A stretch of 64,000 bases of DNA. Origin: Desulfatibacillum sp. (lineage in GTDB: Bacteria; Desulfobacterota; Desulfobacteria; Desulfobacterales; Desulfatibacillaceae). This document shows positions 11,696 through 59,495 of the stretch, piece by piece. The stretch is taken from positions 1-64,000 of the forward strand of contig JAEINP010000010.1 in assembly GCA_016342355.1 (NCBI GenBank). Reading direction: 5' to 3'. How positions within the stretch are numbered: position 1 is the first letter of the stretch; every line of letters starts with the position of its first letter. The notes under the pieces were generated by a model. That model did no database searches, was not told the origin of the DNA, and saw only the letters and a list, made by a program, of their open reading frames with translations. The translations under genes were made by a program, and so were the position numbers.

Positions 11696-11726
11696 TTATA
11701 TAGATATTCAACCAAGGGAGGACAAC

Positions 11727-12617: not shown

Positions 12618-12626
12618 AAAGAGACC

Positions 12627-44247: not shown

Positions 44248-45459
44248 TCAGGACTTGGGCGGCTTGTACCTGGGGCCGCTCAGTTGCTTCGGTGAAAGCT
44301 GATACAAAAGGCTTCCGGCCCCCAGCGATAACCTGGGCAGGAGGGATTTTTGCATGCCCTGGAGTTCCTCAATCCGCTCGGCGGCATAGGACAGGACATC
44401 CTTGGACGGAGGCTTGTGCCCGTAGCGCTCCTTGAGCGTGATGGCCTTGGCCTTTGTGCATTTGGGCACGCACAGGCCGCACCCGATGCACTTGGTATGG
44501 TCGATGACGGCTGTTTCCGCTACCATGGAGATGGCCTCCATGGGGCAGATCTCCACACATTTTTTGCAACCAATGCAGGTGTCCCCGTCCACCCACGCTT
44601 CGAAATGACTTTTTGCGATGATGGTGGGAATGTTGTAATCCTTAAGAATCCGCAGGGCGCCGCAACAGCAGGTGCAGCAGGAACACACCTGCATGGGGTC
44701 TTCCAGATTGTCCACCATGTTCACCAGGCCTGCTTCCATGGCGGCTGTTTTAGCCTCCATGAATTCCTCCCGGGAGACACGCCGGGCGATTCCCTTGTCT
44801 ATGGCCATATCCGCCAACCAGCCCATGGCGGAACAGGCGTGCATGGCCCGGCCGCATCCCTGGCCCAGAAACTCCTGATGGGTCCGGCAGGCGCAGACAT
44901 CCACCAGGCAGAAACTTTTATTGCGTTCCACGATTTCAGAATACCTGTCCGTGGCCAGGGGCATGATGCCCGTGGAGGCGTCGATGGATTTTTCCACGGG
45001 GACAATCCGGCCAAAACGCAGGTCCTTGCCTTCGGCCTTGGGTTTGAAGTAGGTCAGGTACTCGTGGTACACATCCTCGAAAAGGCGGGCGAATTCCCTG
45101 TAAAAAGGAACATTGTCAGGGTCGTCCTTGCTCTTGATCATCTGAAACTCAAATATGCCGGGGGCCAGGGGAATCAGGCCGTAAACAGGAACTCCCGCCA
45201 TGGTCAGGCGAAGGATAAAACACTTTTCCCCCAGGGCATCCAAAACAGGCCGGACCACTTCCACAGGCAGGTTTACGAACCGGGCAATGGTCTTGGCGGG
45301 CTTGGGAACAAAGGTCAGGGCATTGACGATATGCGCCTCCTGCTCATCAAAAAGAAATTGAACCAGGGCCACCAGGGAGTCGCTCACCAGCATGTCGGGA
45401 AAACTATTCTTAAAGACAAATTTTTCAGCCAGGGTCCTGTATAGTTGAACGGGTTTCAT
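44248..45459 (-). CDS. Cys-rich [4Fe-4S] protein, paralog 2
   Basis: 403 residues, the longest of the three paralogs. A winged-helix-like N-terminal region (about 40-105) is followed by CLVDVCACR near 188 and CGRAMHAC near 203. Then CSCCTCCC near 255 and two ferredoxin sites, CIGCKKCVEICP near 295 and CIGCGLCVPKC near 324. A ~70-residue basic tail ends in SPKQLSGPRYKPPKS. It overlaps the DUF362 gene by ATGA, so the two are translationally coupled and probably form a redox pair. Confidence 0.82.
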   Translation of the reverse strand: MKPVQLYRTLAEKFVFKNSFPDMLVSDSLVALVQFLFDEQEAHIVNALTFVPKPAKTIARFVNLPVEVVRPVLDALGEKCFILRLTMAGVPVYGLIPLAPGIFEFQMIKSKDDPDNVPFYREFARLFEDVYHEYLTYFKPKAEGKDLRFGRIVPVEKSIDASTGIMPLATDRYSEIVERNKSFCLVDVCACRTHQEFLGQGCGRAMHACSAMGWLADMAIDKGIARRVSREEFMEAKTAAMEAGLVNMVDNLEDPMQVCSCCTCCCGALRILKDYNIPTIIAKSHFEAWVDGDTCIGCKKCVEICPMEAISMVAETAVIDHTKCIGCGLCVPKCTKAKAITLKERYGHKPPSKDVLSYAAERIEELQGMQKSLLPRLSLGAGSLLYQLSPKQLSGPRYKPPKS

Positions 45460-46622
45460 TTCGCCTCCTGTTTAAATGAAAATATCCACTGAAGAGCCCC
45501 TTGCTTGAGGCCAATGGCGGCTTCAGGGCAAATCTCCATGCAGCAAAAACACCGGATGCACTTCCGGTAATCAAAGGCCGGAACCTTTTTTCCCTCCGGC
45601 GCCTTGGCGATGGCTTGGGCTGGGCAGGTTTTCATGCACTGATAGCACAGGATACATTTTTCCGGGTTCGGGGCCGGTTTTTCCACCAGCCAGTTTTTAA
45701 CGGTCTTGGACGTCAGGGGCCAAACCACCCCGCCGTAAATGGTGTTCTTGGGCGGAGTAAACTGGCACGCAAGGTCCTGGATGCTTTCCCCCACCACCTG
45801 GATGTCTTCAGAGGAATTGGGGCCGAAATCCCTTTTAAACCCCTGGCCAATGGTGAAGACCTTGGCCGGGTCCAGACCTGCGGTTTTCACCGCCACCCAG
45901 TCCACGGCGATGGCGTCCTCCCCGGCAAGAACCACGCCCCAATCCCTGGGAGACCCCGTGGGGCCAGGCCCCTCCCCTTCCATGGAACGGACCCCATCCA
46001 CCAAATGGAACAACTGCCTGTCTGGCCCCATGCCGTACTTCAGCCCCCCGTAAAGGTCCAGCAAATAATCGGCGAAATCCGCTTGATCCGGCACCCGCAT
46101 ATGCATGCGGGACTTTTTCAAACCTGGAATAACCCCAAACAAATGCTTGACTGCACCGGTCACATAGGTGAAGGAATGGGTCTTGAATTTCACCAGATTC
46201 AGGATGATGTCCGCATCAAAATAGGCGGCGGAAATATCGATGGTCCGGTACAGTTTTCCGTGCTCCCACCTTAAAGGACGAGTAGGGACCGGGTCCGGTA
46301 CTTGGATTCCCAATTCCTCCATGATGGGGCCGTAGCCCACCTTTTTGAGGGTGTTTTCCAGGGAAAAGAAATTGGGATTCTCCACCAGGATTGGCGTTCC
46401 CCCGTACTCCAAAACCACCATGGCCGCAGCCCGGAAAAACTCGGGATGGGTGACCACGGCTTTGTCCGGATGAGTGGGCATGAGAAGGTTGGGCTTGAGG
46501 ATCACCCTGGCGCCCATTAGGGACTCCATGTCAAAGCCAGCCGCCGCCATTCCCCTGGCGATCACGTCCGTCAATAGATCGTTCCTGTATTCCTTGCACC
46601 GCATCAAGGCCACACGGGTCAT
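45456..46622 (-). CDS. DUF362-domain [4Fe-4S] protein
   Basis: 388 residues from the ATG at 46622, which has AAAGGAGA upstream; the frame is open 27 codons further without a ribosome site. The DUF362 domain covers about 1-290 (VILKPNLLMPTHPDKAVVTHP, ILVENPNFFS, LNLVKFKTHSFTYVTGAVKHLFG). Two C-terminal ferredoxin sites are CILCYQCMKTCP near 326 and CIRCFCCMEICP near 355. DUF362 proteins are iron-sulfur proteins of unclear role. The end overlaps paralog 2. Confidence 0.87.
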   Translation of the reverse strand: MTRVALMRCKEYRNDLLTDVIARGMAAAGFDMESLMGARVILKPNLLMPTHPDKAVVTHPEFFRAAAMVVLEYGGTPILVENPNFFSLENTLKKVGYGPIMEELGIQVPDPVPTRPLRWEHGKLYRTIDISAAYFDADIILNLVKFKTHSFTYVTGAVKHLFGVIPGLKKSRMHMRVPDQADFADYLLDLYGGLKYGMGPDRQLFHLVDGVRSMEGEGPGPTGSPRDWGVVLAGEDAIAVDWVAVKTAGLDPAKVFTIGQGFKRDFGPNSSEDIQVVGESIQDLACQFTPPKNTIYGGVVWPLTSKTVKNWLVEKPAPNPEKCILCYQCMKTCPAQAIAKAPEGKKVPAFDYRKCIRCFCCMEICPEAAIGLKQGALQWIFSFKQEAK

Positions 46623-46647
46623 GCGAATCTCCTTTCCCTCCTGCACG

Positions 46648-47277
46648 TCAATCCTTTTTAAAAAGGATGTGCATGGTGTCGTCCAACACACGGTCAAAAT
46701 CAAACCCGGACTGGTTGCCCCTGGGGGAAGTCAGGGTGAGTTCCGCCACGCCTGTCATAATACTCCACATCACCGGAATGGCCCGGGACGCTTCCAGTCC
46801 CTTCAGGATAGGGGCCATGGCCGGGTTTTCCAGCACAACCTGGGTTTTTGCCAGAACGCTCGCCAGAAGGGTTTCCAGGTCATTCAAAAGAGTGGGATTG
46901 ATTTCCCCGGCCTGGTTTCTTTGCTCGTAAAGATAGCCGATGACATTGATATGCCTGCCGCAGGCAAGGTAGTAATCCTTATAGTCATTGGCCATGGCCT
47001 TCAATACCTGAAGGGCGTCCTCGCCCTGGATGCGCGAAGCAAAAGCCTTGTCCAATTTTTCAAGATGCCCTAAAAGCATGCACAAAAACAGCTCTTCCTT
47101 GTTCTTGAAATACATGTAAATGGAACCCACGGAAAGGCCCGCAGCCTTTGCCACGGACCGGATGGTCACCGCATCAATGCCTTTGGTAGTGAGAATCTCC
47201 TCGGCCACCTCCACTATGGTCTGCCGCCGGTTCTCCTTTTGAGCTTTTCGTAATTCCATGAATCTTTTGATAGTCAC
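46648..47277 (-). CDS. TetR/AcrR-family transcriptional regulator
   Basis: 209 residues from a GTG at 47277; an ATG at 47259 is the likely alternative. The helix-turn-helix is about residues 19-65 (QTIVEVAEEILTTKGIDAVTIRSVAKAAGLSVGSIYMYFKNKEEL). The effector half has a MWSIMTGVAELTL stretch. It lies inside the operon between ferredoxin paralog 3 and the DUF362 gene. The palindromic operator at 48503-48527 is its most likely target, which would give autoregulation and control of the divergent LuxE/LuxC operon. Confidence 0.88.
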   Translation of the reverse strand: MTIKRFMELRKAQKENRRQTIVEVAEEILTTKGIDAVTIRSVAKAAGLSVGSIYMYFKNKEELFLCMLLGHLEKLDKAFASRIQGEDALQVLKAMANDYKDYYLACGRHINVIGYLYEQRNQAGEINPTLLNDLETLLASVLAKTQVVLENPAMAPILKGLEASRAIPVMWSIMTGVAELTLTSPRGNQSGFDFDRVLDDTMHILFKKD

Positions 47278-47324: not shown

Positions 47325-48413
47325 CTATACCCCCAGGCCTACGATGAAATCCGGCCTTTGGGGTGGTTCTTTGTCTGTCCTGCGTTTCATGGATAAAGCC
47401 GCGCTGGGACAGGCAGTCACGCAATTGCCGCAGCCCGTGCAATATTCCTCTGCAATGCGGGCCATATCTTCATCCAGGGAAATGGCCTCCAACTGGCACC
47501 GCTCCAGACAATCGCCGCAGCCGATGCAGGCCTCCCCATCCACAACCGCCATAAAATTGGAAGGGTAGACCATTTGAATACCGCGATATTTCTTCATCTT
47601 GACCATGAAATCGCAACAGCAACCGCAGCAATTGCATAAAACAATATTTTCCCCCTGGAAATTGTTCACGTTATGCACCAAGCCCGCCTTTTCACTGTCC
47701 TTCAAGGTCTCAAAACAGGTCTCCTTGGTGATCCTGCCGGCAAAACCCCGGTCTATCATAAAGTCCGCCACCTTACCAAAATACAGGCACGAATGGGTGG
47801 GCGCGCCAGCCACCTTGCAGGGATTGCCCGTGAGCTTGGCCTGCTGCCTGCAATGACACACCGCAGCAGCAAAGGAGGTTTCTTTTTCCAATACCAGGGC
47901 AACCCGTTCGTAGGACTGGACCCCGGACTCCAGGGGCAGTTCCTGCTCCACAGTCAGGGTGCGCATGGCTGGTTTGATCACTTTCCGAGCCTTTTCCGGC
48001 ATTTCATAAAGGCCTTTAACTGCCTCTTCCACGCCGTCCATCATTTTCTTGAGCAAACGGGCCTGCTGAGCTTCTCGGGAATCCTCCGCGCCGCGCATGA
48101 GTTGAAACTCCACCAGACCCGGCATAAAGGGGGTGAGGGAGTATTCCCTTTCCCCGGTAGCAGCATCCTTGGAAAAAACCAGCCCTTTGTCCGCCATTTC
48201 CTCCAGCATAGGCCTTAGCGTTTCCAGATCCCGGCCCATCAATTCCGACAATTTTTCGGCGGAATGGGAACCCAGGGGAAAATCCGCCCCCAACAAAGCC
48301 TCTTCCTCAGAAAAAATGGACCTGAGAAAATCCAAAACCGGCGCCACCAAAGGAAATCTTGCCGGGTTTTTGTTCAGCCTCTCGCCTAACCGGTTGTAAA
48401 CATCTTGGTCCAT
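47325..48413 (-). CDS. Cys-rich [4Fe-4S] protein, paralog 3
   Basis: 362 residues. Winged-helix-like region about 45-100 (LGSHSAEKLSELMGRDLETL, then MADKGLVF). The central block has AAAVCHCRQQAK near 187 and HSCLYFGK near 210. CNCCGCCC is near 263, and two ferredoxin sites, CIGCGDCLERC near 300 and CTGCGNCVTACP near 328, close the protein. AGGGGG precedes the ATG. It heads a four-gene minus-strand operon opposite the LuxE/LuxC genes. It is closer to paralog 1 in the CNCCGCCC motif than to paralog 2. Confidence 0.83.
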   Translation of the reverse strand: MDQDVYNRLGERLNKNPARFPLVAPVLDFLRSIFSEEEALLGADFPLGSHSAEKLSELMGRDLETLRPMLEEMADKGLVFSKDAATGEREYSLTPFMPGLVEFQLMRGAEDSREAQQARLLKKMMDGVEEAVKGLYEMPEKARKVIKPAMRTLTVEQELPLESGVQSYERVALVLEKETSFAAAVCHCRQQAKLTGNPCKVAGAPTHSCLYFGKVADFMIDRGFAGRITKETCFETLKDSEKAGLVHNVNNFQGENIVLCNCCGCCCDFMVKMKKYRGIQMVYPSNFMAVVDGEACIGCGDCLERCQLEAISLDEDMARIAEEYCTGCGNCVTACPSAALSMKRRTDKEPPQRPDFIVGLGV

Positions 48414-48494
48414 AAATCCCCCTGCCTGCTTTGCTGGTTCGATGGTTATTGGGTTGAAAAAGAGAATTCCCTGCGATTTCTTTTAAAAATCCTG

Positions 48495-48523
48495 TTGACA
48501 ACATGAACCATGTTCATTATTAT
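48495..48523 (+). promoter_or_regulatory. Strong promoter of the LuxE/LuxC operon
   Basis: TTGACA (48495-48500), an exact 17-base spacer and TATTAT (48518-48523). It is about 50 bases before the LuxE-like ATG. Confidence 0.75.
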
Positions 48524-48527
48524 GAAC
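48503..48527. promoter_or_regulatory. Compound palindromic operator in the LuxE/LuxC promoter
   Basis: ATGAAC-CAT-GTTCAT (48503-48517) fits exactly between the -35 and -10 boxes. The second half-site is reused in GTTCAT-TATT-ATGAAC (48512-48527), giving three ATGAAC half-sites. A TetR dimer or two dimers could bind here. It also lies in the upstream region of the divergent ferredoxin operon. Confidence 0.65.
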
Positions 48528-48575
48528 GAAATTCAACGGCATGGCAAGAAAAAACTCCTCACAAGGAAATAACCC

Positions 48576-50003
48576 ATGACTCCACACCCTGAAAAATCCC
48601 TCAAAATCGCCCAGGATGGCCTGAAAACAATCCTGGTCCAGTGGGCCGCCACAAAATCCTATGACCAAAACCAGGCCAGAAAACTCCGGGAACAAGCCGC
48701 GGCAGCCAATTATCTCCGATACCGGGATCACATCCCCTATTTCGCCAAAGTCGCCGACATGGCGGGCTTGAACGGAGACGCCCCGGGCATGGAACAAATC
48801 CTGGAACATTGCATGATCCCGGACGATATTTTCAAGTCCTATCCCCAGAACTACCTGGACGAAAAGGATTTCCAAGGCATGAATCACTGGCTTTCGCAAG
48901 TGAGCTCAGTGCGCCCGTCCAAAAATTCAGCCAAGGCGCAGGGCCTGGACCAGTGGATGGAAGCCCTAAGCCGGGAAGGCATCCATCTGGTTTTTTCCTC
49001 CGGCACGTCAGGCAACATGTCCTTTGTTCCCCGAGACCCCGACACCTGGTTTCATTTTCTCAAAAACGCCATCTTGTACCTACCGGTGGTCGTGGCAAGC
49101 CAGGGTTTGACGCCCAAGTGGAAAAGCAGTTTGCTCAAAATAATTTCCCGGGCCATGGAGCCTGGCGCATTCCTGAATCTGGCCGACAAATACGGCCGCC
49201 TGATCTTTCGGGAATTCGACGGATATTTCTGCAATTTTTCCGGCGGCAACCAGGGCATACAGCTTGTGGGCCAGGAACTGGCGAAATATTGCGGTTCCTC
49301 TTTTTTCCTTTACGACATGCCCCTATCCCCCGAAGCGGTAAGGGGCATTGTGCGGGGGGCGAAGAATCCTGAGGAACAGGCCCTTATTGAAGCGTTTTTA
49401 AAAACCACTGTTCACGACAAGAAAGCCAATTACGACCGCATGCTCAGGGCATTGGAAAAATCCGTCAGGCGCGGCCGCAAGGTTATCATTTTCGGGACTC
49501 CCTACTTATTGATGGAAATATGCCAGGAGGTCAAGGCCCGAAACATGACCCTGCGTTTAAAAAAAGGCAGCAATGTGTTTTTCGGAGGGGGCTGGAAATC
49601 CTTTGACGGCCAGCGCATTCCCGAACAGGAGCTTGTGGCTCTCATGAGCGAAAGCCTTGGCGTTGAGCCCCGGTACATTTCCGAAGGGTATTCCATGACC
49701 GAAATCCAGGGGCTGATGATCCGGTGCCCTGAAAAAAGGTATCATATCCCTCCCCATTTTGAAACCGTGATCATGGACGCGGAACTAAGGCCCATGGAGG
49801 GGGAGGATCTTTCGGGTACTCTGGGCATTGTGGACCCCTTTGCCGAAAGCTACCCCGGATTCCTGATTACCGGGGACCATGTCCGGCGCCTCAACACACC
49901 CTGCCCTTGCGGCCGCCAAGGACCCACCATTGTTTCCATTGCACGCAGCCCGGGCAGAGAGATTAAGGGGTGCGGCGGAATCATGGCGAAAATCAACGCA
50001 TGA
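48576..50003 (+). CDS. LuxE-like acyl-protein synthetase / PaaK-type acyl-activating enzyme
   Basis: 475 residues. The LuxE family activates a fatty acid as acyl-AMP and passes it to a Cys for reduction by LuxC. Visible signatures: DDIFKSYP near 88, the adenylate loop VFSSGTSGNMSFVPRD near 146, a FFGGGWKSFDG stretch near 332, EGYSMTEIQG near 366, and a C-terminal CPCGRQGPTI near 447 typical of LuxE/PaaK proteins. The gene is 24 bases upstream of the LuxC-like gene. Assignment to LuxE over plain PaaK rests on this pairing and on the SSGTSG form of the loop. Confidence 0.8.
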   Translation: MTPHPEKSLKIAQDGLKTILVQWAATKSYDQNQARKLREQAAAANYLRYRDHIPYFAKVADMAGLNGDAPGMEQILEHCMIPDDIFKSYPQNYLDEKDFQGMNHWLSQVSSVRPSKNSAKAQGLDQWMEALSREGIHLVFSSGTSGNMSFVPRDPDTWFHFLKNAILYLPVVVASQGLTPKWKSSLLKIISRAMEPGAFLNLADKYGRLIFREFDGYFCNFSGGNQGIQLVGQELAKYCGSSFFLYDMPLSPEAVRGIVRGAKNPEEQALIEAFLKTTVHDKKANYDRMLRALEKSVRRGRKVIIFGTPYLLMEICQEVKARNMTLRLKKGSNVFFGGGWKSFDGQRIPEQELVALMSESLGVEPRYISEGYSMTEIQGLMIRCPEKRYHIPPHFETVIMDAELRPMEGEDLSGTLGIVDPFAESYPGFLITGDHVRRLNTPCPCGRQGPTIVSIARSPGREIKGCGGIMAKINA

Positions 50004-50027
50004 CAGTCGGAAATCAGGAGGGGACAA

Positions 50028-51704
50028 ATGCAAACATACATAACCGGAATGGCCACATCGGATTATCTGTCCGGCGCCCTGGGGACGCTGTGCCGTCAAC
50101 ATCGACTAATGCAGCCGGACGAGGACAACATCATGCGGCTGCCATTCCTTATAAAGGGGGAGCTGCGTGTTCCTGTCCCTGTGGAGCCAGAGGTCATTTT
50201 CCTGGCCTTTGTGGATGCGGAACGGGAAGCCCTGCCCGGGGTGGTTCCCACCCATGTGAACCTGGGGCGGGCTCAGGTATTGCGGGAGCCCGTGATTGAC
50301 CGCGAAACCATGCGGAACACCGGAGAATTCCTGTACACGGTCATGCCGGTGTTCACACCCGAAGAAGTCATTGAAACGGACATCCCGGCCCTGTGCAAAG
50401 ACTTATACAATATGCCCTTTTCCAGGGTGACGGAGCTTCTGGGGGATCTGTCTCAGACCTTTTCGCAAAACCGTCTGCTTTTGGATTATGTGCGGGATGT
50501 GACCGTGCAGACCGCCATGCTGCCGGACCTATGGCACGACATGGGTTTTGAAGCCCTGGCCATGATGCTGGACCCGGAATCTGCCCAACAAATGGTGGAC
50601 AGGGACTTGTGCGCCTGGGGAGTGGACGGCTCCCGACTGTTGGACGATTGGGTGGAGCTGGAACAGGCCAAGGTCCTGCCCGCCCCGGTCCATGTCATTG
50701 CAGCTCAGGCCTTGGGAGGAAAAGCTCCGCCATGGGAGACGCGCACACCTGCCTTGCGGGCCATGCCCACCCGGCAATTGCACATCACGGCAGGCAACGC
50801 CCCACAGATCCCTTTTATATCAGCCTTGCGGGCCATTCTCACCAAATCGGCGGCTGTGGTCAAATCCCCATATGGGGCGACCCTGCCAGGAGCTTTGCTG
50901 GCCCTGGCTCTGGTGGCGACAGCCCCGGACCACCCCATCACCCGGCATCTTTCCATAGTATATTGGCCGGGCGGCGACGGTTCGGTGGAAGACGCCTTTT
51001 TTATGCCGGGCAGCTTTGACCGGATTGTGGTGTGGGGAGCCCCTGGCGCGGTGGAATCGGTAAAGAAAAGAGCCTTGTTCACCAAGGTCCTGACCTTCAA
51101 TCCCCGATACGGGGTCTCCCTGATCGCCAGGGAATCCCTGGAGGGCGACATGGATTCCCTGGCGTCCAGGGCGGTGACAGACTCTCTGGTGGCTAACCAA
51201 AAGGCCTGCATCGCCTCCCAAATCCATTATGTGGAAGGAGACAGGGATAGGGTTAAAGCCTATGCCCTGGCCCTACAAAAAGCCCTGGCAGCCTTTGACC
51301 GCATAGCGCCCAATTATGTGGAGCCTCACTTTGTGGGGGAGCTCAAACGGGTCATGCGGGGCGTCCTTATCGACGGAGAATGGTTCGTCAACCAGAAAAA
51401 CGGATTCTGGCGCTCTGGCGTAGTCGTGATGGACCGGGAGGTTCCCCTTTCCGCAGTGACCATGCAACGGATGATCATCGTCCGCAGGGTGGATGACATT
51501 TCCCGGGCCCTTGCCCATCTGCACCCGGGAGTTTCCACGGTCAGCGTGTCAACCCCCTCCCTAAAAAATAAAATCCGGGACATTGCGGCAGCCTCCGGGG
51601 TGAGCAATGTGGTGGACCTGGGCCACAGCGGTACCATGTTTCCCGGCATGAGCCATGACGGCATGATGGTCCTCAGCGAACTGGTGGACTGGAAAAACGG
51701 TTGA
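50028..51704 (+). CDS. LuxC-like acyl-CoA (fatty acyl) reductase
   Basis: 558 residues. LuxC-family aldehyde dehydrogenase fold that reduces acyl-AMP, acyl-enzyme or acyl-CoA to the aldehyde with NADPH. Key parts: ITAGNAPQIPFISALRAILTKSAAVVKSPYG near 252 for the cofactor site, the gap region YWPGGDGSVEDAFF near 308, and the nucleophile Cys394 in ANQKACIASQIHYV. AGGAGGGG precedes the ATG. No luxA, luxB or luxD gene is in the window, so the product is a free or channelled fatty aldehyde, not light. Confidence 0.88.
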   Translation: MQTYITGMATSDYLSGALGTLCRQHRLMQPDEDNIMRLPFLIKGELRVPVPVEPEVIFLAFVDAEREALPGVVPTHVNLGRAQVLREPVIDRETMRNTGEFLYTVMPVFTPEEVIETDIPALCKDLYNMPFSRVTELLGDLSQTFSQNRLLLDYVRDVTVQTAMLPDLWHDMGFEALAMMLDPESAQQMVDRDLCAWGVDGSRLLDDWVELEQAKVLPAPVHVIAAQALGGKAPPWETRTPALRAMPTRQLHITAGNAPQIPFISALRAILTKSAAVVKSPYGATLPGALLALALVATAPDHPITRHLSIVYWPGGDGSVEDAFFMPGSFDRIVVWGAPGAVESVKKRALFTKVLTFNPRYGVSLIARESLEGDMDSLASRAVTDSLVANQKACIASQIHYVEGDRDRVKAYALALQKALAAFDRIAPNYVEPHFVGELKRVMRGVLIDGEWFVNQKNGFWRSGVVVMDREVPLSAVTMQRMIIVRRVDDISRALAHLHPGVSTVSVSTPSLKNKIRDIAAASGVSNVVDLGHSGTMFPGMSHDGMMVLSELVDWKNG

Positions 51705-51727
51705 TAACAGCGAAAAGGAAACTCCCT

Positions 51728-52993
51728 ATGAACGAAAAACCCTCCTCTATCCTTGTCCAGCCTTTGCAAATCGGACCTTTGACGGCTAACGGGCGCGTAT
51801 TCAAAACCGCCACTTCCGAAACCCGGGCCACGGAAGACGGTTTTGTCTCTGACGAACTCCTGGATTTTTACAGGCCCATTGTCCAGGCGGGCACGCCTCT
51901 CATTGTTACCGGAAACCTTTATGTGACCGAAGAAGGCAAATCCACCTACCGCATGTGCGGGGCTGACAAAATGGACAAAGCCCAAGGCCTGGCCCGTTGG
52001 GCGGACCTTGCTCATGAGCATGGCAGGCTTTTGTTCGGGCAGATCAACCACTGTGGAAGACAGGTCCTGGCCCGGGCCATGGGGCTGGAATCCGCAGTGT
52101 CTGCCTCGGATATTGGAGAAAAGGTCATGGGAACCCGGCCCCGACCCCTTTCCAGGGATGAGGTGGGACAGGTTGTGGAAGCCTATGTAGCTTCGGCGGA
52201 AGTGTGTGAACAAGCAGGATTTGACGGGGTCCAAATCCATGCCGGGCACGGATACCTCATCAACCAGTTCCTCACCCCCTACACCAACCGGAGGGAGGAC
52301 GAATACGGAGGCAGCTTTGTAAAACGCATGCGCCTGTTGCTGGAAATTTTCTGGGGAATCAGGGAGCGGACCAACCTGGCGGTGATCATGAAGATCAACG
52401 GCGCGGATTACCTGCCAGGCAGGCATGGGCTTTCCACGGCGCAACTGGTGGAGGTGGCCAGGATTCTCCAAAACGAAGGGCTGGACGCTGTGGAGGTTAC
52501 GGTGGGCCATTACGAGTCAGGCTTTCCCATGATCCGGGGCAATTTCGGCCCCTTTTTCAAGGGATTGATGGAGGAAGGCATAGGGGATCAACTGCCCTGG
52601 TTCCGAAGATGGGGAGTGACTTGGTTCCGGCATCCGCTGGCGTTCATGTTTGACCAACTCTGGCCCGCCCGGGAGGGTTTCAACCTGGGTTACGCCCGGG
52701 CGTTCAAGGCAAAACTGTCCATACCGGTCATATGCGTGGGCGGATTCCTGACCCGGGAAAAAATGGAGCAAGGGGTAAAGGATGGCGTGTGCGATGCGGT
52801 TTCCGTGGGCCGGTCCATGATTGCCGATCCGTTTTTGTTCCAACACCTGATGACCGGGCAAAAGGGACCCAAATGCACCTTTTGCAACGCCTGCATCGCC
52901 AGAGCCGGACGCCTGCCAGTGGATTGCTATGACCCTGAAATCAAAAAAGAGAAAGACGCCATGATGGAAAATATGGCCCTGGTCTCAAAATAA
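51728..52993 (+). CDS. NADH:flavin oxidoreductase (old yellow enzyme family)
   Basis: 421 residues from the ATG at 51728 with AAGGAAA upstream; the frame extends nine codons back to a TTG that overlaps the LuxC stop. TIM-barrel FMN domain: FKTATSETRATEDGFVSDEL near 30, FGQINHCGRQ near 103, HAGHGYLINQFLTPYTNRREDEYGG near 178, VGGFLTREKMEQGV near 337. A C-terminal Cys set (CTFCNACIARAGRLPVDC) can hold a [4Fe-4S] cluster, as in FadH. It lacks the second FAD domain. It probably accepts electrons from a partner protein; the divergent ferredoxins are candidates. Confidence 0.87.
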   Translation: MNEKPSSILVQPLQIGPLTANGRVFKTATSETRATEDGFVSDELLDFYRPIVQAGTPLIVTGNLYVTEEGKSTYRMCGADKMDKAQGLARWADLAHEHGRLLFGQINHCGRQVLARAMGLESAVSASDIGEKVMGTRPRPLSRDEVGQVVEAYVASAEVCEQAGFDGVQIHAGHGYLINQFLTPYTNRREDEYGGSFVKRMRLLLEIFWGIRERTNLAVIMKINGADYLPGRHGLSTAQLVEVARILQNEGLDAVEVTVGHYESGFPMIRGNFGPFFKGLMEEGIGDQLPWFRRWGVTWFRHPLAFMFDQLWPAREGFNLGYARAFKAKLSIPVICVGGFLTREKMEQGVKDGVCDAVSVGRSMIADPFLFQHLMTGQKGPKCTFCNACIARAGRLPVDCYDPEIKKEKDAMMENMALVSK

Positions 52994-53085
52994 CAAACCA
53001 GACAACAGTAAAAAGCTGGTTAATACATTAACATTTAGCCGTTGCCACTGCTTTGAACAGAATCAATAATATGTATTAATAAAAA

Positions 53086-53101
53086 ATTAGTGGTCACTAA
53101 T
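53086..53101. promoter_or_regulatory. Operator upstream of the TetR gene at 53211
   Basis: ATTAGTG-GT-CACTAAT, with 7-base perfect arms. It lies directly upstream of TTGACA (53110-53115) and TAAGGT (53134-53139). The same motif recurs at 53895-53910. Confidence 0.6.
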
Positions 53102-53109
53102 ATTTTTTC

Positions 53110-53139
53110 TTGACACGCTTTCAAAAGATGGTCTAAGGT
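53110..53139 (+). promoter_or_regulatory. Promoter of the TetR gene
   Basis: TTGACA and TAAGGT with an 18-base spacer. Transcription would start about 53146, which makes the ATG at 53148 nearly leaderless and favours the GTG at 53211 as the start. Confidence 0.45.
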
Positions 53140-53210
53140 CTGGATCAATGGGTGACCCTTGGAACAAATTCCGGGACCATTGCCGGACCCAATCAATTAA
53201 GGAAAAAACT

Positions 53211-53834
53211 GTGGTGCAAAGCAGCATAAAAATCGTGGAAAAAACCCGCCGGAAATACCTGGAGTATGAACAAAGGGAAAAGGAAATTTTGGCCTGCTCC
53301 ATCCGATTGTTCAACGAGAAGGGATATAAGGACGCCACGACAGCCGCCATCGCCAGGGAATCAGGCATATCCGAGCCCATTTTGTACAAGCACTTCGAAA
53401 ACAAAAAAGAGCTGTTTCTTTGCTGCTTCCACGCCATTGCCGACGAACTAATGGCACGCTACAAGGCGATTTTTAAAAACTGCCGGGACGACGAGTTGGG
53501 CTACATCAAGGGGGTTGTCCGGGCTTATGTGGATTTTGTGGTGAAGAACCCTGATAAGTCCATGTTCCTGGTTCATCTCATGAGTTATAAGAGCGACCCG
53601 GACTTTGCTGACACCTTCACCCAGTTCATGGAAGATAGCATAGGTGCCATAGAACGGGTTCTGAACCGGGCCAAAGCCAAGGGAAAAATCAAGGAGTCTG
53701 CCGATACCCGGTTTTTGGCGGCCATGTTTGTGAGCCAGTATTTTACGGTGGTAGCCATGCAGGACTTCATAGAACCCGGTTGCTTTACCGGAGACACCCA
53801 TTTTGACATTATGGAAAGTTTAATGGGCTCCTGA
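53211..53834 (+). CDS. TetR/AcrR-family transcriptional regulator
   Basis: 207 residues from the GTG at 53211, which has AAGGA seven bases upstream. An ATG at 53148 would add 21 residues but sits at the predicted transcription start. The helix-turn-helix covers about 25-70 (EILACSIRLFNEKGY, AIARESGISEPILYKHFENKKELF). The effector domain is typical for acyl-CoA-responsive members. Matching operators lie upstream of this gene and of the acyl-CoA operon that follows, so it likely controls both. Confidence 0.87.
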   Translation: MVQSSIKIVEKTRRKYLEYEQREKEILACSIRLFNEKGYKDATTAAIARESGISEPILYKHFENKKELFLCCFHAIADELMARYKAIFKNCRDDELGYIKGVVRAYVDFVVKNPDKSMFLVHLMSYKSDPDFADTFTQFMEDSIGAIERVLNRAKAKGKIKESADTRFLAAMFVSQYFTVVAMQDFIEPGCFTGDTHFDIMESLMGS

Positions 53835-53894
53835 TCCGGGCGCATGCCTCCCGGACCCAGGACAGGGCTGATGAGGCTATTTTTTTATCCAATG

Positions 53895-53910
53895 GTTAGT
53901 GATTACTAAC
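53895..53910. promoter_or_regulatory. Operator upstream of the acyl-CoA operon
   Basis: GTTAGT-GATT-ACTAAC, the same TTAGTG...ACTAA pattern as at 53086-53101. It overlaps a likely -35 (TTACTA at 53903-53908) with TATAAA at 53925-53930, 16 bases away. Confidence 0.6.
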
Positions 53911-53958
53911 AGATAGTTTTCAACTATAAATATTTACTTTGGGGGGATTACAGTTATT

Positions 53959-55743
53959 ATGAAAGGCACTATTCAAGCAGTTTTCAATAAAAATATCAGT
54001 CAGATCCCGGACAAACCCGCCCTGCTGTCCAAAGCGCAAGGCCAATGGATCACCCAAACCTGGGGCGATTACGGAAAAGCTGTGTTGGAGTTTTCCAAAT
54101 GCCTGCTTGCCCTGGGGGTGGAAAAGGGCACCAAGGTGGCCCTCATGGGTAAAAACTCGGCCCACTGGTTTGTGGCGGACATGGCCATCATGACCATGGG
54201 TGCGGTTTCGGTACCCATATACGAAACCAACAGCGGGCCGCAGATCGCCCATATATTAAACCATGCGGGATGCAAGGTGTTTTTGATAGACAGCCTGGAA
54301 TATTTTCTCCGCATGGAATCCCATAGGGAGGGCCTGGACCAACCCTGCAAGGCGGCTTTTTTCATGCCCCAGGACCAAGCCCATCCCCTGGTTATGAGGT
54401 ATGAAGTATTGCAGCAGTTTGGGCGGGCCGTGCCTGACAAGGAGGTGGAACAAGCCCGGAATCAGGTAACGCCGGAAACCGTCTGCACCTTTATTTATAC
54501 ATCGGGGACAACCGGGCCTCCCAAGGCGGTGATGCTCACCCACAAAAATTGCCTTGCAGCGGCTGAAAATGTCCACCTGACCCTTTCGGTAAAGGCTGCC
54601 GCCAGCAGTTCCTGTTCCTACCTTCCCCTTTCCCATGTGGCGGAACGCACCGTGAACCTGTTTTCGCCCCTGTTTGACGGCAAGGCCGTGTACTTTATGG
54701 GCGGGTGGGACCAGTTCCAGGAATACCTGGCTGAAATCCGGCCTACGATTTGGGCGGGTGTTCCCAGGGTGTGGGAAAAACTCCACGAGGCTGTGGCCGG
54801 GTATTTGGCGGCGCAGCCGCCTTTGAAGCAAAAAGCAGCCAAATGGGCCTTGGCTACGGGCCTTAGGTTTAACCGGCACCTATACGACAAAAAGGCTGTC
54901 CCTCCCGGGCTGAGGATTTCCCACAAAATCGCCAGAATGCTTGTACTGAAAAAGCTCCTGAGGGCGCTGGGAATGGATCGGGTGGAAACCGCCGTGACTG
55001 GGGGCGCTGTTCTTTCCAGGGAAGTGCTGGAATTTTTCTTTGCCCTGGGTATCTGGCTCCAGGATGTCTACGGCCAGACAGAAGGCCATGGAACCACCAG
55101 TTTCGCCACCAGAGACGCCGTTCGATTTGGTTCGGCGGGAAAGCCTTACCCTTTGGTCAAGGTGCGCATTGCCGAGGATGGGGAAATCCTTGTCAAGGGG
55201 GACAATGTTTCTCCCGGGTATTTCCGGGAGCCGGAGTTGACCCGGGAAACTTTCCGGGACGGGTGGCTGTATTCCGGGGACCTGGGACGGATCGACGAGG
55301 ATGGGTTCCTGTGGGTTACGGGCCGGAAAAAGGACATCATTATCACATCAGGGGGCAAGAACATCACACCCGCCAAGATTGAATCCTCCCTCATGAGTTC
55401 CCCCTTGGTGGAGCATGCGGTGGTGGTCGGGGAAGGCAGGAAATTCCTCACCGCGCTCCTGACCATCTCGCCGGAAGCCGGGGCAAAATTCCTGGGCATG
55501 GATTCCACCCCCCCCCTGGATATCAAAAAAATTATTTCCAATCCCAAAATATTGGAAGCTGTTGACGCCCATGTCAGGGAGATCAACTCCCAGTTTTCCA
55601 GGGTGGAGCAGATCAAGAAACATACGGTCCTGGACCAGACATTTTCACCGGACACCGGAGAGCTCACCCACCTGCAAAAGCTCAAACGCAATGTGGTGGT
55701 GGAGAAATACAGGGATTCGGTGGAGAAAATGTACCAAGCGTAA
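53959..55743 (+). CDS. Long-chain acyl-CoA synthetase (AMP-forming)
   Basis: 594 residues. Adenylate-forming ligase with P-loop YTSGTTGPPKAVMLTH near 179, LPLSHVAERTVN near 222, the VYGQTEGHGTT motif near 374, YSGDLGRIDEDGFLWVTGRKKD near 437 and a C-terminal GELTHLQKLKR. The large size and ITSGGKNITPAKIE block place it with long-chain or steroid-type acyl ligases. It is the first gene of a six-gene operon. The ATG is preceded by a GGGGGGA at a longer than usual distance. Confidence 0.9.
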   Translation: MKGTIQAVFNKNISQIPDKPALLSKAQGQWITQTWGDYGKAVLEFSKCLLALGVEKGTKVALMGKNSAHWFVADMAIMTMGAVSVPIYETNSGPQIAHILNHAGCKVFLIDSLEYFLRMESHREGLDQPCKAAFFMPQDQAHPLVMRYEVLQQFGRAVPDKEVEQARNQVTPETVCTFIYTSGTTGPPKAVMLTHKNCLAAAENVHLTLSVKAAASSSCSYLPLSHVAERTVNLFSPLFDGKAVYFMGGWDQFQEYLAEIRPTIWAGVPRVWEKLHEAVAGYLAAQPPLKQKAAKWALATGLRFNRHLYDKKAVPPGLRISHKIARMLVLKKLLRALGMDRVETAVTGGAVLSREVLEFFFALGIWLQDVYGQTEGHGTTSFATRDAVRFGSAGKPYPLVKVRIAEDGEILVKGDNVSPGYFREPELTRETFRDGWLYSGDLGRIDEDGFLWVTGRKKDIIITSGGKNITPAKIESSLMSSPLVEHAVVVGEGRKFLTALLTISPEAGAKFLGMDSTPPLDIKKIISNPKILEAVDAHVREINSQFSRVEQIKKHTVLDQTFSPDTGELTHLQKLKRNVVVEKYRDSVEKMYQA

Positions 55744-55764
55744 CTATTGCAAAGGAGAGAAACC

Positions 55765-56229
55765 ATGATTGACAAAAATATGGCCGGAAAAAGTCTGGGG
55801 GTTTTCGAGTTTCCGGTGGAGCGGGGCAAGATAAAGGAATTCGCCCAAGCCACCGGAAATACCAACCCAATGCACCGGAACCCGGATCACGCCAGGGAAG
55901 CCGGTTTCGGCAACGTGCTGATGCCGCTCACCTTTCCCGGCACATTCACCTTTCACATGCCTTCGGAAGACGCGGTCATGGACGCCATGAACGATCTGGG
56001 CATGGACCCTGCACGGTCTGTCCACGGGGAAACGGAGTTCATCCAGCATCGGCCGGTGTTTGCGGGGGAGATACTCACCGTGAAAATGAGCGTGGGCGAC
56101 ATTACGGAAAAGGCAGGGACTCGGGGGGGTACCATGGCCTTTGTGGAATTGCTGATGCGCTTTTTTGATTCGAACAACGAACCGGCCCTGGAAATGCGCA
56201 ATGTTTTCATTGAACGGGGAGCCTTTTAG
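55765..56229 (+). CDS. MaoC-like dehydratase/hydratase subunit (FAS1-type N-terminal domain)
   Basis: 154 residues from the ATG at 55765 with AAAGGAGAG upstream. Hotdog fold with VERGKIKEFAQATGNTNPMHRNPDHA near 22 and GNVLMPLTFPGTF near 52, the pattern of the N-terminal, non-catalytic half of the MaoC/HadA type. The catalytic subunit is the next gene. Together they would form a heteromeric (R)-hydratase or dehydratase acting on enoyl-CoA. Confidence 0.82.
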   Translation: MIDKNMAGKSLGVFEFPVERGKIKEFAQATGNTNPMHRNPDHAREAGFGNVLMPLTFPGTFTFHMPSEDAVMDAMNDLGMDPARSVHGETEFIQHRPVFAGEILTVKMSVGDITEKAGTRGGTMAFVELLMRFFDSNNEPALEMRNVFIERGAF

Positions 56230-56279
56230 ATAGTCCATCAAGCGTAAAATCAAAGCATTATAAATTGAAAGGAACGGCC

Positions 56280-56708
56280 ATGAAAAATACGGGCCTTTAT
56301 TGCGAGGACGTGAGCCCTGGGGATGCCCTCCCCACTTTTGAGCTGAAGGTAACCCGGACCCACATTGTCAAGTTTGCCGGAGCCGGGGGCGACTTCAACC
56401 CCATCCATCATGACGAGGAGTATGCCAAAGCCCTTGGCCTGCCTTCGGTGTTCGCCATGGGCCTTATGTCGGCGGGTTATCTCTCCAGGGTGATTACGGA
56501 CTGGGCCGGGGTGGAAAATGTAAAACGATACAAGGTGCGTTATTCCGGCATTGTGTGGCCCGGGGATATCCTGACCTTTGGGGGCCAGGTTGGGGGCAAG
56601 GCCGGAGACCGGGGAATTGTCAGTTGCGAACTGCATGCGTCCAATCAAAATGGCGAAAAGGTTATTGAGGCTGAGGCCGAGGTTCTTTTACCAAGGCGGA
56701 ACGCCTAA
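56280..56708 (+). CDS. MaoC-like hydratase catalytic subunit
   Basis: 142 residues from the ATG at 56280, with AAAGGAA upstream. The hydratase-2 motif is complete: AGAGGDFNPIHHDEEYAKALGLPSVFAMG, with the catalytic Asp near residue 38 and His near 43. It follows the FAS1-type subunit by 51 bases. The pair matches two-subunit hydratases such as HadA/HadB or the ChsH1/ChsH2 type of steroid side-chain breakdown. Confidence 0.85.
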   Translation: MKNTGLYCEDVSPGDALPTFELKVTRTHIVKFAGAGGDFNPIHHDEEYAKALGLPSVFAMGLMSAGYLSRVITDWAGVENVKRYKVRYSGIVWPGDILTFGGQVGGKAGDRGIVSCELHASNQNGEKVIEAEAEVLLPRRNA

Positions 56709-56718
56709 CAAGGAGAAA

Positions 56719-57870
56719 ATGTACATGGATTTCAGTTTAACCAACGAACAGAAAATGTTTGAAAAATCCGTGGAGGAATTTGCCCGGAAGGAAATTGCTC
56801 CCGGGGTGGACGAAAGGGAATATGGCTTGGGTTTTTGCCAGGAGACCTGGAACAAGCTGGCCCGGGTGGACCTGACCGGACTTTGCCTGCCGGAAAAATA
56901 TGGCGGAGCGGGCGCGGACGCACTCACCACGGTCATTGCGTCCATTGCCTTTGCCAGGGGAGGCTTTGACGGCTCCCTATGCACGGTTTGGGGTTCGCAT
57001 CTTTTTTTGGGGGCAATGTCCATTTGCGACCTGGGAACCGAGGAGCAAAAGGAACAGTACCTGCCCAAAATGGCCACAGGAGAATGGATTGGGGCTTTGG
57101 CCCTTACCGAGTCCGACGCCGGTACTGACGCCACCTCCCTGGCCACCACCGCAACACGGGACGGGGATTACTACATTCTTAACGGCAGCAAAACTTTTAT
57201 TTCCAACGCGCCTATTGCCGACGTCTTTGTAACATACGCCACCGTGGACCCTTCAAAGAGAGCGGGCGGGATTACGGGTTTCATTGTGGACCGGGACACT
57301 CCCGGCCTGACTTGCAGCCCTCCCATGCAGAAACTTTTCGGCAAGTCCACTCCCACGGGAGAGATGTTTTTTGACAACGCACGGGTTCCTGCCAAAAACC
57401 TTTTGGGCAAGGAAGGGGAAGGCTTTACAGCTATGATCGCCTCCCTTGGCTGGGAACGCTTGGCCTTTGCGCCCATTGTAGGCCTCATGGAGGCGGAACT
57501 GGCCATTTGCATTGATTACGCCAGGACCCGCAAGCAATTTGGCAAGCCCATCGCCAAATTTCAACTTGTGCAGGCCATGCTTGCCGAAATGAAAATGGAT
57601 CTGGAAGCCAGCCGGTATCTTGCTCTTTCCCTGGCCTGGAAAAAGGATCAGGGTATATTCAACCCCATTGACGCAGCCATCGCCAAAACCTTCATATCCG
57701 AGGCCGGGGAGCGCAATTCCCGGAAGGCCGTGCAGATACACGGCGGGGCGGGCTGCATGCAGGAATGCAAGGCAGGGCGCAACTTCTGGGGAGCCAAGAT
57801 GACCACCATAGGCGGCGGCACTTCCCAGATTCAACGGGTACTCATAGGACGGATGCTCACTGGTATTTGA
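56719..57870 (+). CDS. Acyl-CoA dehydrogenase
   Basis: 383 residues from the ATG at 56719 (a second ATG at 56725 fits the AAGGAG ribosome site too). Standard acyl-CoA dehydrogenase: LTNEQKMFEKSVEEFARKEIAP at the start, ALTESDAGTDATSLATTA near 135, LNGSKTFISNAPIADVFV near 155, and HGGAGCMQECKAGRNFWGAKMTTIGGGTSQIQR at the end. The usual catalytic Glu position in YEGT reads IGGGT here, as in enzymes whose base lies elsewhere. Introduces the double bond before the MaoC hydratase. Confidence 0.9.
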   Translation: MYMDFSLTNEQKMFEKSVEEFARKEIAPGVDEREYGLGFCQETWNKLARVDLTGLCLPEKYGGAGADALTTVIASIAFARGGFDGSLCTVWGSHLFLGAMSICDLGTEEQKEQYLPKMATGEWIGALALTESDAGTDATSLATTATRDGDYYILNGSKTFISNAPIADVFVTYATVDPSKRAGGITGFIVDRDTPGLTCSPPMQKLFGKSTPTGEMFFDNARVPAKNLLGKEGEGFTAMIASLGWERLAFAPIVGLMEAELAICIDYARTRKQFGKPIAKFQLVQAMLAEMKMDLEASRYLALSLAWKKDQGIFNPIDAAIAKTFISEAGERNSRKAVQIHGGAGCMQECKAGRNFWGAKMTTIGGGTSQIQRVLIGRMLTGI

Positions 57871-57891
57871 GCCATAACAAGGAGGAAGACA

Positions 57892-59076
57892 ATGCATCCA
57901 ATTCGCGGAAAAGCAGCCATTGTGGGTATCGGAGAGGTTCCCACAGGGCATTATCCTGAAAGATCGTTCATCGACGCGGCGGTAAGAGTGGGAACCATGG
58001 CCATTCGGGACGCGGGCATTCCCAAGGAGGATATAGACACCATCATACCCATTGGAGCGGTGGCCAATCCATTGGACAACGCCAATCTGGTATGCTCGTG
58101 TCTGGTGGAGGAAATGGGGCTGGGCAAAACAGCTAAGTCCAACTTCCAGGTCATGAGCGGGGGCTCCAGTTCCGCCAATTCCCTGAAGACGGCTGTTGCC
58201 CTGGTGAACTCAGGATTGTCCAAGGCGGTGCTGGTGCTCCATTGTGATAGGTTGGGCACAGGCATTGACTTTGAAGCGGCTATCACGACGTTTTCCAAGT
58301 CCTCCATCAGCCAGGAATATGAAAGCCCTTACGGATTTTCACAGCTTGCCCTGGCCGGTCTGCTCCAGCAACGATACATGCATGACACAGGAACCACGGA
58401 GCGGCAGGTTGCAGCGGTGGTGGAATCCCTGAGAAAATGGGCCGGACTCAACCCTAACGCCATGTTGCGCAAACCCCGGACAGCGGACGAGGTTCTGGAC
58501 TCCAAGGTCATCAGCAGCCCGGTCCGCAAGCGCATGATGAACATCCTGGCAGACGGGGCCGCAGCGTTCATTGTCACAAGCGCTGAAAGAGCCGGGGATT
58601 TGACAGACACCCCGGCCTATGTGCTTGGCATGGGGAGCAGGTGTACAAATTTTACCTGCACGGCCCAACCCCAGGATCTTTTTAAAGCCTGGGGGCCTGC
58701 CTGTATGGAAGCCTATGATATGGCTGAAATCAAACCAACAGACGTGAGGGTGGCGGAAATTTATGACGCCTTTCCCACGTTCATCCTCATATCCATGGAG
58801 TTATTGGGCCTTTGCCCCCGGGGTACAGCCGGACAAATTGTGGAAGCGGGTCACACCTCGCCCGGCGGCAAGCTGCCGGTTTCCACTAACGGGGCCATGA
58901 TGGCCCAGGGCCACACCGGGGCCGGAGGCGGCATGGCCATTCTGGTGGAGGCTGCCCGGCAGGTTATGGGCAAGGCCGGGGACCGGCAGGTGAAAAACAC
59001 GGACATTGTGGTTGAAACCGCCTCGGGCGGTGTGGGCATGGATTTTCATGTGGGCGTTCTGGGAAGGGAGGTTTGA
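57892..59076 (+). CDS. Thiolase-like protein of the SCP-x / Ltp2 type, catalytic Cys absent
   Basis: 394 residues. SCP2-type thiolase fold: AAIVGIGEVPTG, DIDTIIPIG, GLSKAVLVLHCD, VAEIYDAFP near 284, and a late GHTGAGGGMAILVEAARQ with the conserved His. Where thiolases carry the nucleophilic Cys the sequence reads FQVMSGGSSSANS, with no Cys. The same loss is known for Ltp2-type steroid aldolases, which cleave beta-hydroxyacyl-CoA by retro-aldol chemistry and need a DUF35 partner. The next gene is a DUF35 protein. GGAGG precedes the ATG. A true thiolase of the BbsAB kind is less likely without the Cys. Confidence 0.82.
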   Translation: MHPIRGKAAIVGIGEVPTGHYPERSFIDAAVRVGTMAIRDAGIPKEDIDTIIPIGAVANPLDNANLVCSCLVEEMGLGKTAKSNFQVMSGGSSSANSLKTAVALVNSGLSKAVLVLHCDRLGTGIDFEAAITTFSKSSISQEYESPYGFSQLALAGLLQQRYMHDTGTTERQVAAVVESLRKWAGLNPNAMLRKPRTADEVLDSKVISSPVRKRMMNILADGAAAFIVTSAERAGDLTDTPAYVLGMGSRCTNFTCTAQPQDLFKAWGPACMEAYDMAEIKPTDVRVAEIYDAFPTFILISMELLGLCPRGTAGQIVEAGHTSPGGKLPVSTNGAMMAQGHTGAGGGMAILVEAARQVMGKAGDRQVKNTDIVVETASGGVGMDFHVGVLGREV

Positions 59077-59078
59077 TC

Positions 59079-59495
59079 ATGGCCGAATACAAAAAACCGC
59101 TTCCGCTCATCACGAGTTTGAGCAAAGTGTTCTATGACGGATGCAAGGAAAACAAGCTGCTTTACCAACAATGCAAGGATTGCGGGGAGGTGATTTTTTT
59201 CCCGAAAATCGTCTGCCCCGGCTGCATGGGCGAAAACCTGGAATGGAAGGAATCCGCGGGCAAGGGGAAGATATTCAGTTTTACCGTGGCCTACGACTAT
59301 GCCCCGCCCGAGTTTGCCGGGGACACCCCTTACGCCCTGGCCGTGGTGAACCTGGACGAAGGATTTTCCTTGCTCACCAATATTGTGAATTGTGATTTTG
59401 AGAAAATTTCCTGCGACATGCCGGTGGAGGTGATGTTCGACCCGGTAACACCGGAGATCTCCCTGCCCAAGTTCAGGCCCGTGGCCGGAGTATAG
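59079..59495 (+). CDS. DUF35 OB-fold zinc-ribbon protein, partner of the thiolase-like protein
   Basis: 138 residues from the ATG at 59079, with GGGAGG upstream; the frame opens two codons earlier. The zinc ribbon has Cys32, Cys35, Cys46 and Cys49 (CKDC...CPGC), followed by an OB-fold with GKIFSFTVAYDYAPPEF. DUF35 proteins bind thiolase-like partners and complete their active site or CoA site. It starts 2 bases after the thiolase-like gene stop and ends the operon. Confidence 0.9.
   Translation: MAEYKKPLPLITSLSKVFYDGCKENKLLYQQCKDCGEVIFFPKIVCPGCMGENLEWKESAGKGKIFSFTVAYDYAPPEFAGDTPYALAVVNLDEGFSLLTNIVNCDFEKISCDMPVEVMFDPVTPEISLPKFRPVAGV

Follow-up and report, generated by a model that had tools for sequence, protein, structure and literature searches.

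The window analysed here, 64,000 nucleotides of contig JAEINP010000010.1 from a Desulfatibacillum sp. genome (GCA_016342355.1), carries on its forward strand three closely spaced open reading frames (ORFs). They encode a long-form LuxE relative (48576..50003; 475 amino acids, aa), a long-form LuxC relative (50028..51704; 558 aa) and a single-domain old yellow enzyme (OYE) (51728..52993; 420 aa; PF00724, 155 bits). The ORFs, together with matches in Pfam and the Protein Data Bank (PDB), bear out the original prediction that a LuxE-like, a LuxC-like and an OYE gene lie at these places. The intergenic gaps are 24 bases (luxE-luxC) and 23 bases (luxC-OYE) when the OYE starts at the ATG 51728, which we prefer over the TTG 51701, and the three genes are presumably co-transcribed. 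The host belongs to the genus of Desulfatibacillum alkenivorans, described in the cited portion of PMC11150832 as an anaerobic, mesophilic sulfate reducer, and it is probably an anaerobe itself. D. alkenivorans DSM 16219 is the one named record found with this LuxE (75% identity), and it contains the same three genes luxE, luxC and OYE.

The assignment of the two Lux-type proteins combines profiles, structure matches, conserved motifs and trees. LuxE matched PF04443 with 76.8 bits (cut-off 24.9), the match being confined to residues 287-471, and LuxC matched PF05893 with 128.6 bits (cut-off 21), so the profile check that had been proposed places 48576-50003 inside the LuxE family and 50028-51704 inside the LuxC family. 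The PF05893 match alone would be weak evidence, because this profile also exceeds its cut-off in seven of the 14 control genomes. In the PDB (E ≤ 0.01), the sole match of LuxC was 7xc6_A (E 3.7e-20) and the sole match of LuxE was 7xc6_E (E 1.9e-18). Cys394 of LuxC, within NQKACIASQ, is aligned to a cysteine of 7xc6_A, and Cys466 of LuxE, within KGCGGIM, to a cysteine of 7xc6_E; we take both residues to be acyl acceptors and assume likewise the role of the SSGT-type motif of LuxE (SSGTSG, residues 141-146). The NQKACIAS stretch of LuxC is kept in all eight members of the long-form clade described below, as are the GCGG[IV]M and SSGT-type motifs of LuxE. A profile search of the whole genome yielded one LuxC and one LuxE match. 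The pair thus resembles the LuxE/LuxC of luminous bacteria (7xc6) in consisting of two proteins with aligned cysteines that exceed the PF04443 and PF05893 cut-offs. It differs in length (475 and 558 aa versus chains of 373 and 477), in lying apart from a lux-type reference in the trees, in having no luciferase-family gene in the genome and in scoring far below the NCBIfam equivalog cut-offs (67.6 of 550 for LuxE, NF052244; 103 of 750 for LuxC, NF052251).

Long-form pairs of this kind were found in few of the sampled genomes. A six-row LuxE profile found six of 389 genomes of the class at E 1e-30 or better. At 1e-15, ten of the 395 genomes of the phylum sample matched, namely the host, D. alkenivorans (G001), G330, G365 and six that matched by the C-terminal part only; G330 and G365 carry a long-form LuxE and belong to another family than the host. 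In total, the long-form clade comprises eight sampled genomes of the phylum, and LuxE lies directly upstream of LuxC in all of them. The LuxE search of a 291-genome class sample gave 32 places in 31 genomes, and the neighbourhoods of the best 14 (E up to 1.7e-9) were studied; two loci of the same contig beyond the window (L047, L048) were included in the neighbourhood comparison. In this class, other kinds of luciferase-free LuxE/LuxC pairs are not rare: eight more of the 291 genomes, those with the next-best LuxE matches, encode a short-form LuxE-like protein (348-379 aa; the eight were not scanned with PF04443) with a PF05893 gene in the same locus, adjacent in seven and about 2.5 kb apart in one. 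The pair described here is therefore less surprising than the original prediction implied. The short-form pairs share with it the location of both genes in one locus, and differ in the length of the LuxE-like protein and in forming a separate group in the LuxE tree. Two of the short LuxE-like genes adjoin genes for 869-aa proteins (L041 9830-12436 and L043 10070-12676) whose first half is LuxC and whose second half gave no Pfam match (E 1e-6).

The nearest relatives of the clade were found on plasmids. Searching 72,556 plasmids with tblastn (E ≤ 1e-5) retrieved 39 records with LuxE relatives and 28 with LuxC relatives, and we opened seven stretches for long-form pairs, plus two more. In all seven, a protein of ~450-480 aa adjoins LuxC; the LuxE of the window matches six of them directly, and the Pseudonocardia one only through alignment and tree. 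The hosts of the pairs, which we assume to be aerobic, are Novosphingobium, Sphingobium, Paraburkholderia, Caballeronia, Pseudonocardia and M. avium. Profile comparison with six plasmid long forms aligned 392 columns of LuxE and 445 of LuxC. The plasmid pairs thus resemble ours in adjacency, in aligned length and as the nearest group in the trees, and differ in their neighbours, which include short-chain dehydrogenases/reductases (SDRs), cytochromes P450, FAD/GMC oxidases, a polyketide synthase and an alcohol dehydrogenase; only one of them, in Paraburkholderia, has an OYE relative (30%). Genes for an SDR, an alcohol dehydrogenase or an OYE lie near the pair in three of the aerobic relatives opened. 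Maximum-likelihood trees of 25 LuxE and 24 LuxC rows gave the same groups. The clade of the window (eight rows) is supported with 100/99 for LuxE and 100/100 for LuxC, and the aerobic plasmid group, nearest to it in both trees, with 100/99 and 97/96. The genes of one laboratory plasmid, which we take to be lux-type from their gene order (the annotation says only reductase, transferase and ligase), fall outside both groups in both trees. The LuxC tree has long branches, and the fork that unites the two groups reaches 94/92, below the starred level. No LuxE relative was confirmed in viral contigs in one scan.

Two further arrangements were seen on plasmids. On the Paraburkholderia sprentiae plasmid, an SDR-like gene separates the first LuxC-LuxE pair from a nearby gene for a second LuxE-like protein (L060 14219-15583). 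A stretch of a Priestia megaterium plasmid (L087) includes a gene annotated as LuxE and none annotated as LuxC; near the LuxE gene are genes for iron-sulfur assembly, a carrier protein and a fatty acyl-AMP ligase. Lux-type genes outside light operons have also been described elsewhere. Compared by description, the Aeromonas flagellin glycosylation islands share with our locus the joint presence of luxE and luxC outside a light operon and differ in context (cited portion of PMC7874193). The mel2 locus of Mycobacterium marinum, again compared by description, likewise holds Lux-like genes outside luminous bacteria and differs in having a LuxA-related protein; its authors report no clear LuxE in the cited portion of PMC1793995.

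The OYE contains a four-cysteine motif, CxxCNxCIARxGxxPxxC, that is kept in all 12 members of its family compared, i.e., all the matched places of the class sample. It shares PF00724, the four-cysteine motif and a HAGHGY stretch with the iron-sulfur flavoenzymes of the FadH/OYE type (2,4-dienoyl-CoA reductase, mycofactocin OYE, BaiCD), and it differs from them in its 420 aa, in its tighter cysteine spacing, in scoring far under the cut-offs of the matched NCBIfam models and in the FAD/NAD domain, which Pfam did not detect. A FadH-type OYE encoded in the same window (34124-36130) has the spacing C-x2-C-x3-C-x11-C plus a FAD/NAD domain by Pfam, versus C-x2-C-x2-C-x10-C here, so our OYE does not show the FadH-type combination of barrel, four cysteines and FAD/NAD domain. 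The claim of an iron-sulfur OYE thus stands as regards the conserved motif, and does not extend to the spacing and domain structure of the FadH type. OYE relatives 67-82% identical adjoin the LuxE/LuxC genes in four other genomes, and an OYE lies beside the long-form pair in five of the six class genomes that have this pair. The G235 contig with the OYE ends within an SDR that shares 70% identity with the one of G022; its LuxE/LuxC genes may therefore simply have been cut off. G365 and G330 have instead a longer FadH-type OYE and an SDR, placed divergently to the pair. In G176, a fused fatty acyl-AMP ligase/carrier/alpha-oxoamine synthase protein (L102 9735-13130) is encoded directly beside the OYE relative; a carboxylic acid reductase had been suspected at this place and was ruled out by this fusion. 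In addition, a membrane-protein-like family (43-46% identity) occurs near the OYE in three genomes (L035 4924-5805, L097 6030-6932, L098 9555-10418), and the one member scanned gave no Pfam match.

Upstream of luxE there is a sigma-70-type promoter match, TTGACA-17-TATTAT (48495..48523, forward strand; 11 of 12), the best of six matches found when 48350-53300 was scanned in both directions (mean of shuffles 2.8). Its spacer contains the palindrome TGAACCATGTTCA (48504..48516), a putative TetR operator, followed by an imperfect second site, TGAACGAAATTCA (48523..48535), which has one mismatch to TGAACNNNGTTCA; D. alkenivorans, G138 and G022 also have an imperfect second site with this 19-base offset. 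A TetR-type regulator (46648..47277, reverse strand; PF00440), the putative repressor of luxE-luxC-oye, has relatives near LuxE in D. alkenivorans (63% identity), G138 (45%) and G022 (39%). The promoter with a palindrome in its spacer recurs in four loci, the palindrome being exact in the window, in D. alkenivorans and in G138 and having one mismatch in G022; these are the four loci with recognisably the same TetR. Other TetR-type genes are found at the loci of G050, G105, G365 and G330, where the stretches read did not contain the palindrome motif. The chance of an exact palindrome in the 162-base gap is about 6 in 100,000 (from two sites per 5.26 Mb), but the four loci are related to one another. 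Thus, 48495-48523 with its palindrome is the probable control region of luxE, and it is plausible, from this sequence conservation, that the palindrome is the TetR operator.

The palindrome does not mark a regulon. In the host genome, the other exact site precedes an ORF truncated at the end of its contig, whose product looks hydrophobic on inspection and has no Pfam match. Nine exact sites occur in four other genomes. Two of them fall in the luxE promoters of D. alkenivorans and G138, two lie at or upstream of different TetR genes, one precedes an acyl-CoA-dehydrogenase-like ORF, and the remaining four, within or next to ORFs, have no evident promoter position. The palindrome was therefore rejected as a regulon marker. 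At the LuxE/LuxC locus of G365, a different, perfect 24-base palindrome, ATGAGAATGACATGTCATTCTCAT, lies at the start of a TetR-like gene (L070 6440-6520).

In Lux chemistry, an acid is activated, its acyl group is transferred to a cysteine and the thioester is reduced with NADPH to an aldehyde. We give slightly better than even chances to the reading that the operon encodes a TetR-repressed, two-protein, ATP- and NADPH-dependent carboxylic acid reductase together with an ene-reductase. LuxE would convert a hydrophobic carboxylic acid with ATP into an acyl-adenylate and load the acyl group on Cys466, from which it would pass to Cys394 of LuxC, and LuxC would reduce the thioester with NADPH and release the free aldehyde. 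The OYE may reduce the conjugated C=C bond of an unsaturated aldehyde or of a linked intermediate and, because it shows no FAD/NAD domain, it may be fed with electrons by the iron-sulfur proteins encoded alongside. In the relatives, a nearby SDR would probably reduce the aldehyde to the alcohol. TetR, bound to the spacer palindrome, would keep the operon off until its ligand arrives. As for the purpose, we favour the conversion of a hydrophobic acid for a specialised lipid or in catabolism, and neither glycerol ether lipids nor light. A more specific version, a TetR-switched anaerobic cassette in which LuxE/LuxC and a new subfamily of single-domain, ferredoxin-fed iron-sulfur OYEs jointly convert a long-chain or alpha,beta-unsaturated acid to a saturated aldehyde or alcohol, as a building block of a lipid or metabolite undescribed in sulfate reducers, is doubtful.

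Several observations weigh against the proposed reductase operon. PF04443 leaves the N-terminal part of LuxE unmatched, the pieces of this part were insignificant against 7xc6_E, only 181 C-terminal columns align with five short-form LuxE proteins, and PF05893 covers only residues 250-555 of LuxC. On the lux-type reference plasmid, neither LuxC nor LuxE matched the cysteine and SSGT patterns, except for KGCAL in the LuxE, and the structure models of LuxE and LuxC, built from two-sequence alignments, have a mean predicted local distance difference test score (pLDDT) of 37.2 and 37.8. As for the partnership with the OYE, G105 has LuxE/LuxC without this OYE, with none on its 37.7 kb contig and none in its genome at E 1e-70. 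At E 1e-70 or better, the OYE was found in 11 of the 291 class genomes, five with a long LuxE and six without. On the OYE tree the linkage to LuxE/LuxC is scattered (three changes; 116 of 500 shuffles equally low), so a shared LuxE/LuxC-OYE pathway is not forced, and the partnership has probably been gained and lost over time. The nearest SDRs found in the window are more than 40 kb away from the operon, and the D. alkenivorans locus showed none. Concerning the operator, exact TGAACNNNGTTCA occurs at two places in the 5.26 Mb genome versus three for the reversed control, and the exact palindrome at two versus two in D. alkenivorans, i.e., without genome-wide enrichment. Finally, searches of open-licence literature found no activity or substrate reported for any member of the long-form clade; the two papers retrieved that mention LuxC, LuxE and sulfate reducers concern, by their titles, alkane production by microbes.

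The operon is flanked by a divergent block on the reverse strand. Its first gene encodes a cysteine-rich 4Fe-4S protein (47325..48413; Fer4_21; 72% identity in D. alkenivorans), which is possibly an electron carrier; in the G365 locus (L070), a relative with 30% identity is encoded directly downstream of LuxC, and two others (42% and 44%) 5-6 kb downstream. Besides the TetR gene, the block encodes a protein with DUF362 and 4Fe-4S domains (45456..46703; PF04015, 155.7 bits; 82% in D. alkenivorans, 58% in G138) and a 4Fe-4S dicluster domain protein (44248..45459; PF14697/PF00037; 80% in the same block of D. alkenivorans, 59% in G138). An SDR is found within the locus in five of the eight long-form loci. 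Farther away in the window, 8591-16820 encodes a menaquinone-type cluster (chorismate-binding protein, MenD-like thiamine pyrophosphate (TPP) enzyme, enoyl-CoA hydratase, UbiA, MenC-like protein, AMP ligase and hydrolase), preceded by two more TPP enzymes, two SDRs and an SBF transporter.

The genome had no match to the luciferase family PF00296, while 10 of the 14 control genomes match. The predicted absence of luxA and luxB is thereby confirmed, and since the search was genome-wide it also applies to an adjacent luxAB pair. There was no genome match either for luxD (PF02273) or for the WS/DGAT acyltransferase of a wax ester pathway (PF03007), two profiles that matched none of the control genomes and so do not establish an absence. 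As the pair occurs in a probable anaerobe without luciferase, the aldehyde likely serves something other than light. The earlier proposal that fatty aldehydes are made for another purpose is thus retained for the non-light role and not supported for ether lipids. That the chain is fatty is a prediction, and the opened aerobic relatives lie among P450, FAD/GMC oxidase, SDR or polyketide synthase genes.

An alternative is electrophile or aldehyde defence, in which a TetR-OYE unit, comparable to the NemR-NemA cassette, would detoxify enals and enones while LuxE/LuxC would handle toxic acids or run toward acyl products. In G034, and with the second copy in G138, an OYE gene directly adjoins a TetR gene and the stretch read contains no LuxE/LuxC, which is consistent with defence. 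So is the finding that, of the three operon proteins, the OYE is the most conserved across four compared genomes (67-82% identity versus 49-75 for LuxE and 52-67 for LuxC). However, the ATP use expected of LuxE from its homology points to acid reduction, which makes aldehydes rather than removing them, and we regard defence as unlikely. LuxC is also a member of the aldehyde dehydrogenase superfamily, in which reactions may run either way, and might thus oxidise aldehydes derived from alkene hydration to acyl thioesters in hydrocarbon catabolism. A title in the reference list of PMC11150832 calls D. alkenivorans n-alkene-degrading. Such a route would require LuxE to run backwards, and the clade occurs in other families and has aerobic kin with other neighbours (linkage to alkene genes was looked at in the loci read), which makes it quite improbable.

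A side-chain-degradation-like cassette adjoins the operon on the same strand (53148-59495), with genes for a TetR, an acyl-CoA ligase, two MaoC proteins, an acyl-CoA dehydrogenase, and thiolase-like and OB-fold proteins. These families are reminiscent of side-chain thiolysis or aldol cleavage pathways, and the block could belong to one pathway with LuxE/LuxC. Nevertheless, it has its own TetR, and in D. alkenivorans a sensor kinase gene follows directly after the OYE, while the kinase of the host genome lies beyond the block. The block, missing between OYE and kinase in D. alkenivorans, was rejected as part of the LuxE/LuxC system, and a common pathway seems rather remote.

The original prediction had also named glycerol ether lipids as a destination of the aldehyde. 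According to PMC11150832, mono- and dialkyl glycerol ethers are abundant in the genus; the D. alkenivorans enzyme Ger (159 kDa; Ger2, 153 kDa) acts on ester bonds and, expressed alone in E. coli, yields mono- and diethers, other enzymes for ether lipids remaining possible. The host genome has two PF09989 matches on other contigs. They lie in open frames of 1465 and 1418 aa, close in size to Ger and Ger2, of which they are candidate counterparts. This abundance of ether lipids notwithstanding, a supply of fatty aldehyde for them is very improbable, because the Ger route needs no aldehyde step, two Ger-sized frames are present here and the LuxE/LuxC clade is found in only six of 389 class genomes.

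The reductase-type chemistry proposed for the operon is familiar, and searches of open-licence literature found no description of this branch, its OYE or its probable operator. For the question of how ether lipids are made, one candidate is weakened. If aldehydes are made in the cultured D. alkenivorans, these genes would provide a concrete gene set, with a probable operator, for an uncharacterised product. Our results indicate that LuxE and LuxC, best known from bioluminescence, also have a branch apart, which occurs in an anaerobic phylum as well as in aerobes and has partner enzymes of its own.

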